Source of the DNA: a virus
Virus record (IMG/VR): IMGVR_UViG_3300043418_000072
Coordinates: 167,362-231,361 of that record
DNA: 64,000 nucleotides
Reading direction: 5' to 3' (one strand)
A program made the translations under genes and the position numbers. This document shows, piece after piece, positions 6,920 through 43,920 of the stretch. The notes beneath the pieces are model-generated. The model worked only from the letters and a program-made list of their open reading frames with translations. It did no database searches and had not been told where the DNA came from. Within the stretch, counting starts at the first letter, position 1. Every line of letters starts with the position of its first letter.

Positions 6920-7033
6920 ACCATAGTTAAGTACACTGCCGGAGTAGCAAGAACCAACTTGCCCACTTTGTTCCGTCCTGGATAGATTACTCTACTGGTT
7001 CCCAGGCAAACCGCTAATGTACTTAACTATGGT
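6920..7033 (-). ncRNA. Structured RNA element closed by a perfect 16-bp inverted repeat
   Basis: Positions 6920-6935 and 7018-7033 are exact reverse complements over 16 bases. The 82 bases between can form further helices, such as CCTGG with CCAGG enclosing TAGA-GTAA-TCTA, and TTGCC with GGCAA. The 5' arm begins at the discriminator base and CCA of the tRNA; the 3' arm ends just before the groES ribosome binding site. It could be a groES leader, a processing signal, or a stand-alone small RNA. I do not recognise the family. Confidence 0.6.
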
Positions 7034-7104
7034 GCGCTAGGCGGGAATCGAACCCGCGATTCAGAGGTTTAGAAACTCCTGCTATACCATTTAGCTACTA
7101 GCGC
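7030..7104 (-). tRNA. tRNA with anticodon CUA (amber suppressor candidate)
   Basis: A 72-nt cloverleaf plus encoded CCA. The acceptor GCGCTAG pairs with CTAGCGC, the D stem GCTA with TAGC, and the T stem GCGGG with CCCGC around TTCGATT. The variable loop is five bases, GAATC. With these lengths fixed, the anticodon loop is TTCTAAA and the anticodon CTA, which reads UAG. The anticodon stem has four of five pairs; position 31-39 is T-C. Shifting the loop by one to read TCT (Arg) destroys the stem. The amino acid charged cannot be told from sequence; the discriminator base is A. Confidence 0.75.
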
Positions 7105-7156: not shown

Positions 7157-8560
7157 TTATTTCATGCTGTTAGCACGAACTTGTTCGAAAGTGATTTCGT
7201 TAAACAATGCACCGTTCTGGAAAACAGTTTGCAATGCTTCAGTCCAACCACCAATGCCTTTGTCGCTCCAACCAGTAGGGGCTTGCACACTTGTTGAAAA
7301 CTCGCCACCACTGTTGGTCCACAACTTAACACGGCCTTTGAGTGATGCTTTGCCACTGTCAGTGATGGGGTCTTTGTAAACATCAACCCATTCACCGTTG
7401 ACACATGCACTGGAACATTTCATAGCCCACTTCTGTGTATCACGATCAATAGCTTGCAGCAAAGCACCACCCATACCAAATGCAAAGTTATCTGCTGACC
7501 AACCTTGGAAATCAACCATAGTGCGCAAGATGCTTTGGATGCTAACAGTGTTGATACCATCGCCCCAGATCATGCGTACATTGTTGAGTACCTTGTAGCC
7601 CTTGTCATTGGTAGTGTATCCAAAGCCTTCTGCAAGAATTGCAATCATCTTTGGCATGACTTCAACAGGATCACCTGAGTCAGGACGGATAACAACTGTG
7701 GCACCTGAATCAATCACTTGCTGTTTCAAGTCACCAGTACTCCACATTTTACATGCTTCGTAGATGTTGTAGCTGTCACTAACAACTGCAACAATACCGC
7801 CTGGCTTACCAAACTGTGTGACCATGTTGCTGTAGGCGTTCAGTTCACCTGCACGACCCCAACTAGTGATAGTACTGTGCTCGGCAGCTGGAATTGAAAA
7901 ACCTGCGATGCCAGCATTGTAATATTCGCGAGCGTACAGTACACCAGTAATAGTGTCGGTACCCATGAAGTTGACCAAGTGGGCCGCACCCCCAATACCA
8001 GCACTCTCCATTGAAGATACACCACGAGCACCAAAATCGTGCAGTTTAAAACCGATAGTAGTAGGATCACCAGATTTCTCCAAGTATTCTTGCAAGATGT
8101 TTTTAATGTACTTGCTTTGTGTTGAGACTGTAGTTGGGTACCAGACTGCACGAAGCAATGGAGTTTCCAACCATGTGGTTAAACCGTGGCACTTGGGGTC
8201 AGTGTTTTCGATTGTGACCAGTGCGTTTCCAACTGGGACAACAGTGCCTTCTGGTACGGCTTTAATGACCACGGGCAAGTAGCCGTTGTGTGCTTCGACG
8301 ATGTAGTCCCACATGGTGCGGTCGAATGGTTCGCCGTGTGCTGTGAGGATTTCTTCTGCGATGTCAACGTCGGCTTTTGTAATTGGGTCAAGTAAATACT
8401 CCTTGAAGAAAATTTGCAGTCCAACAACTTGTGTGAATGTGAATTTGCCGCCGCGGGCTGCAATGTAGCTGAATACATTAGTAGTGCCAGCTGGGTATTG
8501 AGGCGCCATACTAACTTTGTAGCTGTCAGTATTGAGAATGATGTTTTTAGAGAGTTTCAT
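7157..8560 (-). CDS. nadV: Nicotinamide phosphoribosyltransferase
   Basis: A 467-residue protein of normal length. The enzyme joins nicotinamide to PRPP to make NMN. Visible family motifs are NTDSYK (residues 10-15), YIAARGGKF (32-40), KLHDFGARGVSSMES, IPAAEHSTITSWG holding the catalytic His, VIRPDSGDP, MIWGDGIN and FGMGGALLQ. It has its own promoter at 8614-8642 and lies near the NMN adenylyltransferase at 9311. The two steps together rebuild NAD from nicotinamide, a pair known from other large phages and reported to offset NAD-depleting defences. Confidence 0.95.
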   Translation of the reverse strand: MKLSKNIILNTDSYKVSMAPQYPAGTTNVFSYIAARGGKFTFTQVVGLQIFFKEYLLDPITKADVDIAEEILTAHGEPFDRTMWDYIVEAHNGYLPVVIKAVPEGTVVPVGNALVTIENTDPKCHGLTTWLETPLLRAVWYPTTVSTQSKYIKNILQEYLEKSGDPTTIGFKLHDFGARGVSSMESAGIGGAAHLVNFMGTDTITGVLYAREYYNAGIAGFSIPAAEHSTITSWGRAGELNAYSNMVTQFGKPGGIVAVVSDSYNIYEACKMWSTGDLKQQVIDSGATVVIRPDSGDPVEVMPKMIAILAEGFGYTTNDKGYKVLNNVRMIWGDGINTVSIQSILRTMVDFQGWSADNFAFGMGGALLQAIDRDTQKWAMKCSSACVNGEWVDVYKDPITDSGKASLKGRVKLWTNSGGEFSTSVQAPTGWSDKGIGGWTEALQTVFQNGALFNEITFEQVRANSMK

Positions 8561-9310: not shown

Positions 9311-10330
9311 TTAAACACCTACCGCCCATTGGACCATATCGTAGTGGTCTTCAAAACACTCGTCGCTACGCACTTCTGCAATAGGAACCCAACGTGCTTT
9401 CTCTGCATCGTCACTGCCTTTTACTTTAGGCAATGCACCATCAGGCAATTCAATCTTGTAGCAATGAGTAATGATACGACCACGTGGTGAACGATCAACA
9501 GCATCAAACACACGGTTGCCCGTAATGCTACCACGCAACACTGGCTCAGGTACTTTGATACCAGTTTCTTCACGGAGTTCGCGAATAGCTGCATCAAGTA
9601 CGGTCTTGTCGGTGCTGGCGTTAACGTAACCACCAGGCAGTGCCCACAAGCCACGACCTGGCTCAGCACGGCGTTTGATCATAAGCACATGGCCTGAGCA
9701 AATTACTGCGGCATCTGCTGTGCTAAAGATTGGAGGGTACTTCAAGCTGGCATATTGCTTGTTGTGTTCAATCAAGAATTCACGCTCACGGATAATCTGT
9801 GCAAATTCCTCAGTCTTACGAAAATTCATCAAGAAGTCATAAGTTGATTGAGGTACAACATTCTTAATAAAGTTGCTGTTGAAGGTCCAGTTAAAGAACA
9901 GGTCACGAATGTTCACTGCACTAAGTGGTTCAATTTCCTCTACATCAACATAGCCCCATTGGGGGAACATGTCCAAGTAGAAACTTGATTCGTCTTTCTT
10001 GTGACCAATGATGGCAGTTTTAGTACCCAGGATTCGATACTTGCTGACAATACCTTGCACACGAACTGCCCACGCTTGGTCGTTGTACATTGTATCAATG
10101 TTTTCTTCAATGTGAATACTCATTGCAAGACCACTTGTTGCAGCCTTAATCATTTGAGCACGTTCGGCACTGGTGAAGGGGTTTTTGTAAGTGCGGGGTT
10201 GAGCAGCTGAGCCTGTGATAATTACCAGATTGTCGGTCAATGCTGTGGCTCGCTTGATAATCTCTAAGTGAGCATTGTGGAAGGGTTGAAAACGTCCGAT
10301 GAGGACTAGTGTTCCGTATTCTTTAGACAT
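9311..10330 (-). CDS. nadM: Bifunctional NMN adenylyltransferase / Nudix hydrolase
   Basis: A 339-residue two-domain protein. The N-terminal part has the nucleotidylyltransferase signature GRFQPFHNAHLEII (residues 12-25) and later SAAQPRTYKNPFTSAERAQMI; it makes NAD from NMN and ATP. The C-terminal half is a Nudix domain with GGYVN and RELREETGI; the first Glu of the classic box appears replaced by Thr. Its partner nadV lies at 7157. It is translated right after the gene at 10332 with one base between. Confidence 0.93.
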   Translation of the reverse strand: MSKEYGTLVLIGRFQPFHNAHLEIIKRATALTDNLVIITGSAAQPRTYKNPFTSAERAQMIKAATSGLAMSIHIEENIDTMYNDQAWAVRVQGIVSKYRILGTKTAIIGHKKDESSFYLDMFPQWGYVDVEEIEPLSAVNIRDLFFNWTFNSNFIKNVVPQSTYDFLMNFRKTEEFAQIIREREFLIEHNKQYASLKYPPIFSTADAAVICSGHVLMIKRRAEPGRGLWALPGGYVNASTDKTVLDAAIRELREETGIKVPEPVLRGSITGNRVFDAVDRSPRGRIITHCYKIELPDGALPKVKGSDDAEKARWVPIAEVRSDECFEDHYDMVQWAVGV

Positions 10331-11257: not shown

Positions 11258-12226
11258 TTATTGTTTGCTTTTGATTAGTGATTGATGTGCAACCAACTGC
11301 TCTCTGAGTTGTGCAAATTGCGGATGCACTAGAATGTCCAATGCAGATTCAATGCTACGTAACGCGGTGTTGAATAATGCAGGCGCTAGATTGTAAATGG
11401 CTAGATATTTTGGACTGTTGGCAGTATGTGCAACAAAAGTACAGCGGGGATTGTTTTCAACTATCTCAACAAAGTACTTGGCCAACGAGTGTATGTCAAC
11501 GATTGAGATATTTGTGAGAGTGATATGAAATTTTATTTGAACTGGCAAATCCACAAACTTAGTAATGTTATCTTGTACTATGGACCAGACTGTGCCCGTA
11601 CGTTGCAGTTCTGCTGTTCGTCCTACTCCATCAATGCTGAGATTTAATGTTGTATTAAATTTCAGCAGCTTCTCAACAAATATTTGATTGTACACGCTTG
11701 CATTGGTGTAGACTCGCAAGTTAATGTCTGTTCTGTCTTTAGCTATCAAGTGATCTAGCAACTGATAGTAGTGCTTAATTATCATTGGCTCGCCACCAGT
11801 TAATGTAAGGAACTTTAGATTCTCTGACATGGTAAGTATCTCGGCCCAGTCAGAATCTGAAACGGTATTAACTGAGCCATTGATGAGAGAGCTGTTTTCG
11901 CTATTGCACATCTTGCACTGAAAATTACAAAGATTGCTTGCTCTCAGCTCCATATAATCGAGTTGGTCAACGGTAGTTTCACCATATAGTGCAAGTAGGT
12001 GCTGTCTTATACTTTGCAGCCCTGCGTCTTCTAGTGACTTGCATCCTCCGCAAGTTTCGTCAAACTCGTTATTTAAAAACTTGGTTTTTAAATCTTTAAG
12101 GTAATCACTATTTCTAAACTCTACTGGACTCATGCTAAACTTCTTAGAACTAATGCAGCACACAGCCGATTGATCGACATGGTAGAACAAAGATCGCCAC
12201 GGTGCAGGACAAAAGAATTTTTTCAT
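11258..12226 (-). CDS. Radical SAM protein
   Basis: A 322-residue protein with C-x3-C-x2-C (CNFQCKMC, Cys100, 104 and 107), which holds the SAM-bound 4Fe-4S cluster. TLTGGEPM (142-148) provides SAM contacts. The region before the core has Cys6, Cys23, Cys24 and CGGC (59-62), which could hold an extra cluster. Such proteins cut SAM to make a radical and modify peptides or nucleotides; the substrate cannot be told here. It lies just downstream of the tmRNA and ends at its own terminator. Confidence 0.88.
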   Translation of the reverse strand: MKKFFCPAPWRSLFYHVDQSAVCCISSKKFSMSPVEFRNSDYLKDLKTKFLNNEFDETCGGCKSLEDAGLQSIRQHLLALYGETTVDQLDYMELRASNLCNFQCKMCNSENSSLINGSVNTVSDSDWAEILTMSENLKFLTLTGGEPMIIKHYYQLLDHLIAKDRTDINLRVYTNASVYNQIFVEKLLKFNTTLNLSIDGVGRTAELQRTGTVWSIVQDNITKFVDLPVQIKFHITLTNISIVDIHSLAKYFVEIVENNPRCTFVAHTANSPKYLAIYNLAPALFNTALRSIESALDILVHPQFAQLREQLVAHQSLIKSKQ

Positions 12227-12242
12227 AGAATAGAGTGTGTAA

Positions 12243-12270
12243 TTAGAAAATAGGGGCCGAAGCCCCTATT
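12243..12270 (-). terminator. Intrinsic terminator after the tmRNA
   Basis: Minus strand AATAGGGGC, loop TTCG, GCCCCTATT, then TTCTAATT. It lies right after the coding piece of the tmRNA and before the radical SAM gene. Confidence 0.85.
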
Positions 12271-12271
12271 A

Positions 12272-12592
12272 CTATTTCCTGTTGCAAGGCATAGCTGCCC
12301 CGGAAGCCTTTATCAGGCAACCATTAGAAACTGTGAGTCGTTTGCATTTACTTTTTTTGCTTCTACGGCCGGGAAACCCCAACCCTACGGCTTCTGCTTT
12401 GCCGAGCTGTCCACTTGTTTACTTGTTGCCCTGTCGAAACCATGGCAGGCCCATCAAAAACATACTAAGCACTTTACACCGATATCGTTTCTTAAGTTCG
12501 CCCACGATGTATCGAATAGTACGCTTTTGGTGGACCTGGCGGGAGTCGAACCCGCGTCCAGAACACTTTTCTCTTTGCTTCATACAGCAATA
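12272..12592 (-). ncRNA. ssrA: Circularly permuted two-piece tmRNA
   Basis: Read on the minus strand, the acceptor half comes first. The T arm GCGGGTTCGACTCCCGC (12539-12555) and the 3' end CAGGTCCACCA end at 12528. After a 75-base intervening segment, the coding half begins at 12452 with GGGCCTG, which pairs with CAGGTCC in a seven-pair acceptor stem. GGTTTCGACAGGG follows, conserved in tmRNA. The tag frame at 12345-12313 reads ANDSQFLMVA then TGA-TAA. tmRNA frees stalled ribosomes and tags the product for proteases. The 5' limit and the 3' limit of the coding piece are estimates. Confidence 0.9.
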
Positions 12593-12598
12593 ACTTAT

Positions 12599-12607
12599 AT
12601 TATAGCA
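12599..12607 (-). promoter_or_regulatory. Extended -10 promoter of the tmRNA
   Basis: Minus strand TG-C-TATAAT with no good -35. Transcription would begin near 12592, matching the expected 5' end of the acceptor half of the tmRNA. Confidence 0.65.
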
Positions 12608-12619
12608 CAAGACTATAAT

Positions 12620-13003
12620 TTAACGACCTGTAGTTGTCCAATCCAGCACAACTTCATCGGTGGTAGCATCTCGTAATTGGTAACGGCGTTCAATTCCTGA
12701 TGCTTGCTGAAAAGAAGCAACAGTAGTGGACTCGCCATCGACATGTGCTTGAGCTTGATTTTCTAACGCCAGTTCGTCGAAACATTTGTTAAACTGCTCA
12801 ACTGATTCAAACATCATAGTTACTGTAGTGACTACAGATCCATCAGGCATGTCAGCTCGTGTAGTGACATTTAACTCAGATCCGGGTGCGCTATACTTTG
12901 CAATTATTGCATCACGTGCATCATACACATGCTTGAATTCCGGGCGGTGTAGTGGTCTAACTGCCCCAGCTGGTGTAGTAATTTCTTTAATATACTTGAT
13001 CAT
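12620..13003 (-). CDS. Hypothetical protein
   Basis: A 127-residue protein starting MIKYIKEITTPAGAVRPLHR; ATG 13003 has AGGAG seven bases upstream. The fold looks like alternating strands and helices, with an alternating Val/Thr strand in the middle. No recognisable catalytic motif. It is transcribed by read-through from upstream or an unseen promoter, since a terminator precedes it at 13030-13066. Confidence 0.65.
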   Translation of the reverse strand: MIKYIKEITTPAGAVRPLHRPEFKHVYDARDAIIAKYSAPGSELNVTTRADMPDGSVVTTVTMMFESVEQFNKCFDELALENQAQAHVDGESTTVASFQQASGIERRYQLRDATTDEVVLDWTTTGR

Positions 13004-43467: not shown

Positions 43468-43496
43468 ATTATATTACTTTTTGAAAGTAATTGCAA
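43468..43496 (-). promoter_or_regulatory. Sigma70-like promoter of clpS inside hsp20
   Basis: Minus strand TTGCAA, 17-base spacer, TATAAT. The spacer is the palindrome TTACTTT-CAA-AAAGTAA. It lies over the last hsp20 codons. Confidence 0.6.
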
Positions 43497-43920
43497 TGGA
43501 TTTTGGTTTCTTTTCTTCCGGAACAACTAGTTCCAGTTGAACAGAAAGGATACCGTTTTCCACAGTAGCGCCACGAACCTCTACGTTGTCTGCCAACGTA
43601 AAATCGCGAACGAAGTTGCGGTTACTGATTCCTTGGTGCAAGTATGTTGGAGCAGCCGAATCGGCATCCTTGACCTTTTCACCAGTTACAGTAAGAACAT
43701 TGTCTGCTAGCTCTACGTTGATTTCGCTTTCTGAGAATCCAGCAACTGCAACTTCGACCACAAAATGGGTTTCGTTAACTTGAACGATATTGTGTGGAGG
43801 GTAGTTGCCGCTTTTGCTGTTTGCAAAGGTGCGATTCAATTCCTCAAACATGCGGTCAAAGCCAATGGCTGAACGATGTAGGGAAGGTAGGTCTAGAGTA
43901 CGGATGTTGAATTGTGTCAT
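43474..43920 (-). CDS. hsp20: Small heat-shock protein (alpha-crystallin family)
   Basis: A 148-residue protein. The alpha-crystallin domain spans about 42-140: YPPHNIVQVNETHFVVEVAVAGFSESEINVELADNVLTVTGEK, FTLADNVEVRGATVENGILSVQLEL, and the C-terminal I-x-I-like SIAITFKK. It holds unfolding proteins. AGGAG precedes the ATG. Hsp20 proteins occur in many T4-like phages and may aid head assembly. Confidence 0.93.
   Translation of the reverse strand: MTQFNIRTLDLPSLHRSAIGFDRMFEELNRTFANSKSGNYPPHNIVQVNETHFVVEVAVAGFSESEINVELADNVLTVTGEKVKDADSAAPTYLHQGISNRNFVRDFTLADNVEVRGATVENGILSVQLELVVPEEKKPKSIAITFKK

Follow-up and report, generated by a model that had tools for sequence, protein, structure and literature searches.

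The window, by which is meant the whole stretch of 64,000 nucleotides that was analysed, covers positions 167362-231361 of a 354,098-bp virus record and carries on its minus strand a gene for a permuted tmRNA, in which the acceptor half precedes the coding half. ARAGORN places the gene at 12222-12620 and reads from it the tag ANDSQFLMVA followed by two stops. The earlier note, which had claimed such a molecule here and proposed a covariance search as the check, is borne out by that search: the Rfam model RF04321 (tmRNA_permuted) gives 110.9 bits against a cut-off of 47, passing the curated threshold, and RF01850 (beta_tmRNA) gives 110.2 bits against a cut-off of 84 (E 1.2e-32) with the whole model covered. 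The call is thus made by two independent detectors, and ARAGORN returned one tmRNA call when run on 40 dinucleotide-shuffled windows. The tag frame has its resume codon and stops, and G3:U70, the T arm and CCA are all present. The positions that had been proposed for the T arm, the acceptor strands, ACCA, the removed segment and the tag are exact to the single base, as is the pairing of GGGCCTG with CAGGTCC in a seven-pair acceptor stem across a 75-nt segment, and ARAGORN confirms the ending in -MVA instead of the usual LAA. The span originally given, 12272-12592, locates the gene correctly and leaves the terminator and the -10 box outside it. The features are collected in Table 1.

Table 1. 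Coordinates and basis of the tmRNA elements and of the Clp proteins encoded by the phage (window positions unless stated).
Feature	Position	Strand	Basis
Promoter, extended -10 box TGCTATAAT; -35 not evident	12599..12607	-	Sequence; box in relatives and RF01850 consensus
Acceptor piece of two-piece tmRNA, CCA-terminated	12528..12592	-	RF04321/RF01850 alignment, ARAGORN; 5' end predicted from promoter
T arm GCGGG-TTCGACT-CCCGC	12539..12555	-	Sequence, Rfam alignment
Acceptor stem 3' strand CAGGTCC, contains U70	12532..12538	-	11 different stems, G3:U70 in 66/66
ACCA, after acceptor 3' strand	12528-12531	-	Sequence
Intervening segment, 75 nt, removal predicted	12453..12527	-	24-284 nt in relatives
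Acceptor stem 5' strand GGGCCTG, contains G3; predicted 5' end of coding piece	12446..12452	-	Rfam alignment, comparison
D-loop-like segment ATGGTTTCGACAGGG	12429..12443	-	Rfam alignment
Tag frame GCA AAC GAC TCA CAG TTT CTA ATG GTT GCC TGA TAA = ANDSQFLMVA	12310..12345	-	ARAGORN, codon comparison
Tag codons proper	12345-12316	-	Followed by stops TGA TAA, 12315-12310
Intrinsic terminator AATAGGGGC-TTCG-GCCCCTATT + T run	12249..12270	-	Stem in sequence; retained in relatives
ClpP-family protease, 207 aa	21396..22019	-	Pfam CLP_protease, alignment to solved ClpP
ClpX, 400 aa	44528..45730	-	NCBIfam equivalog, zf-C4_ClpX and AAA_2, alignment to solved ClpX
ClpA-like protein, 763 aa	record 115917-118208, outside window		TIGR02639 best match

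The terminator that had been claimed is indeed found, as an intrinsic terminator stem whose pairing is retained despite base changes in four other records (L008, L019, L072 and L079). For the promoter, a consensus scan found one where 0.9 were expected, which is chance level, and a promoter call by that scan alone was rejected; the box is supported instead by a TATAAT-like box that stands at the same place in L014, L019, L072 and L079 and in the RF01850 consensus.

The wider family was examined in a set of 66 permuted tmRNAs obtained from pattern scans of viral contigs and of 300 genomes of one bacterial order. All seven acceptor pairs are present in 66 of 66, the pairs having been the criterion for extraction; stem variety and G3:U70 were not demanded. 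Since a complementary stem is found at the right place in 11 different sequences, with G3:U70 in every one of the 66, the variation of the acceptor stem represents compensatory change across the removed segment. G3:U70 is the alanine identity pair. The intervening segment ranges from 24 to 284 nt across the permuted tmRNAs and from 24 to 42 nt in the bacterial genes sampled. In a tree, the window gene and its counterparts from three other large phages form a group (support 96/96) on a branch apart from the sampled bacterial tmRNA genes; one record (L030) is identical to the window in tmRNA and flank, and the next relatives are L014 and L019 (96/96). The LMVA ending requires five changes on this tree, and its origin in a single clade is not rejected (AU p 0.31). 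Some permuted tmRNAs have T loops that are unusual for tmRNA, being GGCAGTA and not TTCGANT, with the T stem intact, in L052, L061, L077 and L081 (tag ANDSRFLMVA), and GTGCGAA in L049 and L076.

By its sequence the source virus is a T4-like jumbo phage, with a terminase nearest that of Pseudomonas phage PA5oct (53%) and then those of the jumbo phages Phosso, Atu_ph07 and GAP32. It encodes its own Clp proteins; the earlier note is silent on the genes for ClpX and ClpP, which lie within the window. ClpX passes the NCBIfam equivalog cut-off (524.2 against 359) and that of TIGR00382 (490.6 against 370.75), and has the C4 zinc finger, the GYVG pore loop, KKH replacing RKH and the IGF loop. The residues of ClpX that contact the tag, Y153, V154, V202 and R228-K229-H230 (PMC7112951), are all retained in the alignments save for the change of R228 to K. 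The protease matches Pfam CLP_protease (207.5 against 20.2) and aligns to solved ClpP with an E of 4e-60, with an intact catalytic triad by alignment (the GQACSMG serine, the MIH histidine and Asp); it is named ClpP-family and not ClpP proper because it falls below the NCBIfam ClpP equivalog cut-offs (TIGR00493, 225.1 against 308.6; PRK00277, 238.7 against 249). The 763-aa protein has TIGR02639 as its best match at 814.5, below the cut-off of 993, and is hence only ClpA-like. SmpB and SspB were not found in this phage record or in the other LMVA records. A gene for an Hsp20-type chaperone lies near that for ClpX (window 43474-43920, minus strand).

Each of the four LMVA records that measure 240-355 kb has both ClpX and ClpP, and the two recur in the three closest relatives of the window phage. 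Because both are also present in the records of L117, with a tag ending in ALAA, and L013, the tag of which was not called, the association between tmRNA and phage ClpXP is wider than the LMVA ending. A strict coupling of LMVA with phage ClpX was considered and rejected: jumbo phages with ClpX have tags ending in ALAA (G682, which is L117, and G692, which is L021) or RLAA (G008, which is L015), and two shorter records with the LMVA end (G680 and G681; 142 and 162 kb), possibly fragments, showed no ClpX over the cut-off.

The end of the tag was followed with the pattern AAATGCNAAYGAN{6,24}ATGGTNGCNTRA, which covers only tags within an AAATGC context. In viral contigs it matched 37 stretches: ARAGORN or Rfam identifies 29 as permuted tmRNAs, six are tag RNAs of enterobacterial phages, and the remaining two resemble chance. 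Across the genomes of 84,980 bacterial and archaeal species the same pattern gave 13 matches, most of them out of frame and none a tmRNA by ARAGORN. Several hundred bacterial tags are estimated to be within its reach, since the AAATGC context with an -AA end occurs in 14 of 399 Pseudomonadota genomes, 11 of these being tag-like. Thus the -MVA ending was found in this analysis only in viruses. All 12 sampled bacterial permuted tags end in -AA; the window tag, ending in LMVA, is without the usual -LAA, which is not a defining feature. Among nine distinct MVA-type frames the [L/R]MVA end is invariant (FLMVA in eight) and the codons vary silently, F as TTT/TTC, L as CTA/TTG, V as GTA/GTG/GTT and A as GCG/GCC/GCT. 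As the end of the peptide is fixed while third codon positions vary, the tag is conserved as a peptide and the frame is very likely translated. The MVA and ALAA tags have in common the AND start and an aromatic residue at position 6, and differ at position 7, which is Ala in 26 of 26 ten-residue -AA tags and Leu or Arg in all nine MVA tags, and at position 9, where the Ala of ALAA tags becomes Val.

A second, unannotated RNA scaffold with related endings is found in enterobacterial phages. The search pattern TTTTCGTN{25,55}AAATGCAAAYGA matched more than 120 contigs, many of which belong to phages or prophages of enterobacteria; members of the family include L142, L145, L204 and L100 as well as Serratia phage phiMAM1 (L109), Escherichia phage PhAPEC5 (L112) and Erwinia phages Faunus (L106) and phiEa21-4 (L126). 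The layout consists of a TTTTCGT motif, then a ten-residue frame starting AND or ANE and ending in LMVA, LAVA, MVAA or LMAA (for instance ANEEAYLMVA, ANDEQFLAVA, ANDDLMMVAA, ANDDLMLMAA and ANDNAYLMVA), and then pseudoknots; all 21 frames compared have L, M or R at position 7. Two apparent H-type pseudoknots were seen by eye downstream of the frame, with compensatory changes such as CCAG/CTGG, CCGA/TCGG and CCAA/TTGG, and many members are flanked by hairpins with hypervariable and partly tRNA-like loops. None of those tried was recognised by ARAGORN or Rfam, and a tRNA-like domain was not found in them. Among complete E. coli genomes, 689 of 5,426 contain similar DNA, which in the matches listed mostly carries no annotation apart from tRNAs.

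How much of this is new may be judged against what has been described. Phage-borne tmRNA, permuted forms included, is already known, and the earlier note overstated the unusualness of finding one in a phage: tmRNA has been reported in 402 phages, comprising 133 distinct genes, 53 of them two-piece and 50 of those aquatic (PMC9004378, which describes Melnitz), 79 phage tmRNAs are given in PMC11915505, and limited scans here gave about 50 phage contigs with a permuted tmRNA. Phage tmRNAs, including that of Bacillus phage G, are covered in PMC4131195, tmRNA and SmpB are mentioned in huge phages (PMC7162821), ClpP, ClpA and ClpX are noted in jumbo phages (PMC7824862), and one Sinorhizobium phage is described as having both tmRNA and Clp proteins (PMC11242549). 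In these papers, as far as searched, there is no link between tmRNA and Clp and no MVA ending. No report of an MVA tag was found either in openly readable main texts on phage-encoded tmRNA tags, prophage tmRNA-like RNAs and phage ClpX. The -MVA ending, on which the earlier note made just a brief remark, is more unusual than the carriage of a permuted tmRNA by a phage; new, as far as searched, are this ending, the phage ClpX/ClpP/ClpA-like set beside it and the pseudoknotted tag RNAs of enterobacterial phages.

The closest known molecule is the permuted tmRNA of betaproteobacteria (RF01850, RF04321), which shares with the window gene its order, the two pieces, the acceptor stem, G3:U70, the D-loop and the placing of promoter box and terminator. 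The window gene differs in being carried by a phage, in ending its tag in LMVA and not ALAA, and in a segment of 75 nt as against the 24-42 nt of the bacterial sample. Melnitz and other aquatic phages (PMC9004378) likewise have a permuted tmRNA in a tailed phage; that of Melnitz, however, is of the alphaproteobacterial type with a glutamine riboswitch, whereas the window gene is of the beta type with its own promoter. A phage tmRNA beside a phage ClpX is also seen in Bacillus phage G and in the Sinorhizobium phages AP-J-162 (PMC11242549) and Phosso, although all three are without the LMVA end and phage G has no match to the permuted models. In Phosso (L319) the permuted tmRNA, which ARAGORN misses, has the tag ANDNVSTKVALAA and a long intervening segment, and ClpX is present too. 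Xanthomonas phage X1 (L320), a cultured phage like Phosso, has a permuted tmRNA with the tag (VA)ANDADYSVARYA by ARAGORN at a site without annotation.

Taken together, there is a good probability that the window RNA is a working two-piece tmRNA, encoded by the phage and of the type known from betaproteobacteria. The gene would be transcribed from its own promoter, and tRNA-processing enzymes of the host would split the transcript into an acceptor piece of about 12592-12528 and a coding piece from 12452 to about 12271, the two being joined by the acceptor stem and a helix of 12588-12584 with 12410-12406. Following charging with alanine by the host alanyl-tRNA synthetase, the tmRNA would act with SmpB, presumably that of the host since none is encoded in the phage record, to rescue stalled ribosomes during infection, and the stalled protein would gain (A)ANDSQFLMVA. 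Such proteins would stem from broken messages, of which many may be expected while the phage takes over its host. The E. coli tag binds SspB through its AANDENY part and ClpX through ALAA (PMC8512704); in the window tag the AND..F start is kept and the part read by the unfoldase is altered from ALAA to LMVA. From the type of tag, degradation by Clp proteases would be expected. That the phage's own ClpX, ClpA-like protein and ClpP take a share in degrading LMVA-tagged proteins is suggested tentatively, from their co-occurrence. The Mollicutes offer a precedent for a tag end changing along with the protease, as tags usually end in LAA and those of Mollicutes, which are without active ClpXP, end in NYAFA and are read by Lon (PMC9382460). 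The near-unchanged tag-contacting residues of phage ClpX (pore-1 GYVG, pore-2 and RKH, with only R to K) argue against a wholly new specificity. The phage ClpP could have a role in head maturation.

Other explanations bear on what the tag, or the RNA itself, is for. Ribosomes might be rescued with LMVA serving as a weak or neutral degradation signal, so that unfinished proteins are spared or lost more slowly. Positions 7 (Ala to Leu/Arg) and 9 (Ala to Val) do lie in the ALAA segment bound by ClpX (PMC8512704), yet the LMVA end is still hydrophobic and Ala-terminated, the related LVA variant is widely used to mark proteins for degradation in E. coli (PMC9382460), and the phage has Clp proteins of its own. 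This explanation is considered unlikely. Very little weight is given to a decoy that sequesters SmpB or tmRNA functions of the host, a role proposed for the tRNA-like domain that mycobacteriophage DS6A encodes. The DS6A molecule extends barely beyond that domain, and a molecule of this kind inhibits tmRNA (PMC4131195); the absence of SmpB from the phage would fit as well. However, a decoy has no need of a tag, and here the tag is conserved as protein across divergent phages and is accompanied by two stops, a promoter and a terminator. It is scarcely credible, and already disfavoured, that the gene is a functionless passenger from a host or the remnant of an integration site: tmRNA genes are often integration sites (PMC11915505), but this gene is complete, is kept in several large phages on a branch apart from the sampled bacterial genes, and displays compensatory changes in its acceptor stem.

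With a working phage tmRNA as the preferred reading, a broader and distinctly doubtful proposal is that the -MVA and LAVA-like ends form a virus-specific class of rescue tag, present on two RNA scaffolds, the permuted tmRNA of large aquatic-type phages and the pseudoknotted tag RNA of enterobacterial phages, which in jumbo phages would steer tagged proteins to the phage ClpX/ClpA/ClpP and not to those of the host. If this is true, the virus would run its own pathway of quality control and recycling. Descriptions of trans-translation tags nearly always have them ending in LAA and belonging to the host. The combination of a conserved tag end found only in phages with a phage ClpX, ClpA-like protein and ClpP makes a viral takeover of protein quality control testable, and it supplies alternative degradation signals from nature.

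Several other genes of the phage deserve mention. A radical SAM gene lies downstream of the tmRNA (window 11258-12226). The record has about 49 tRNA genes, about 48 of them in a cluster at record positions 280000-302700 (L045, L046), and apart from this cluster stands a lone tRNA gene with the anticodon CTA, of the amber suppressor type (window 7030-7104, minus strand). Few ORFs of the phage end in TAG (19 of 335); recoding of TAG through the suppressor tRNA is unsupported, as reading TAG as sense lifts coverage just from 79 to 83%. Finally, a nicotinamide phosphoribosyltransferase gene (window 7157-8560, minus strand) adjoins that for a nucleotidyltransferase/Nudix protein (9311-10330, minus strand), which together look like a pair for rebuilding NAD+, perhaps with a role in counter-defence.
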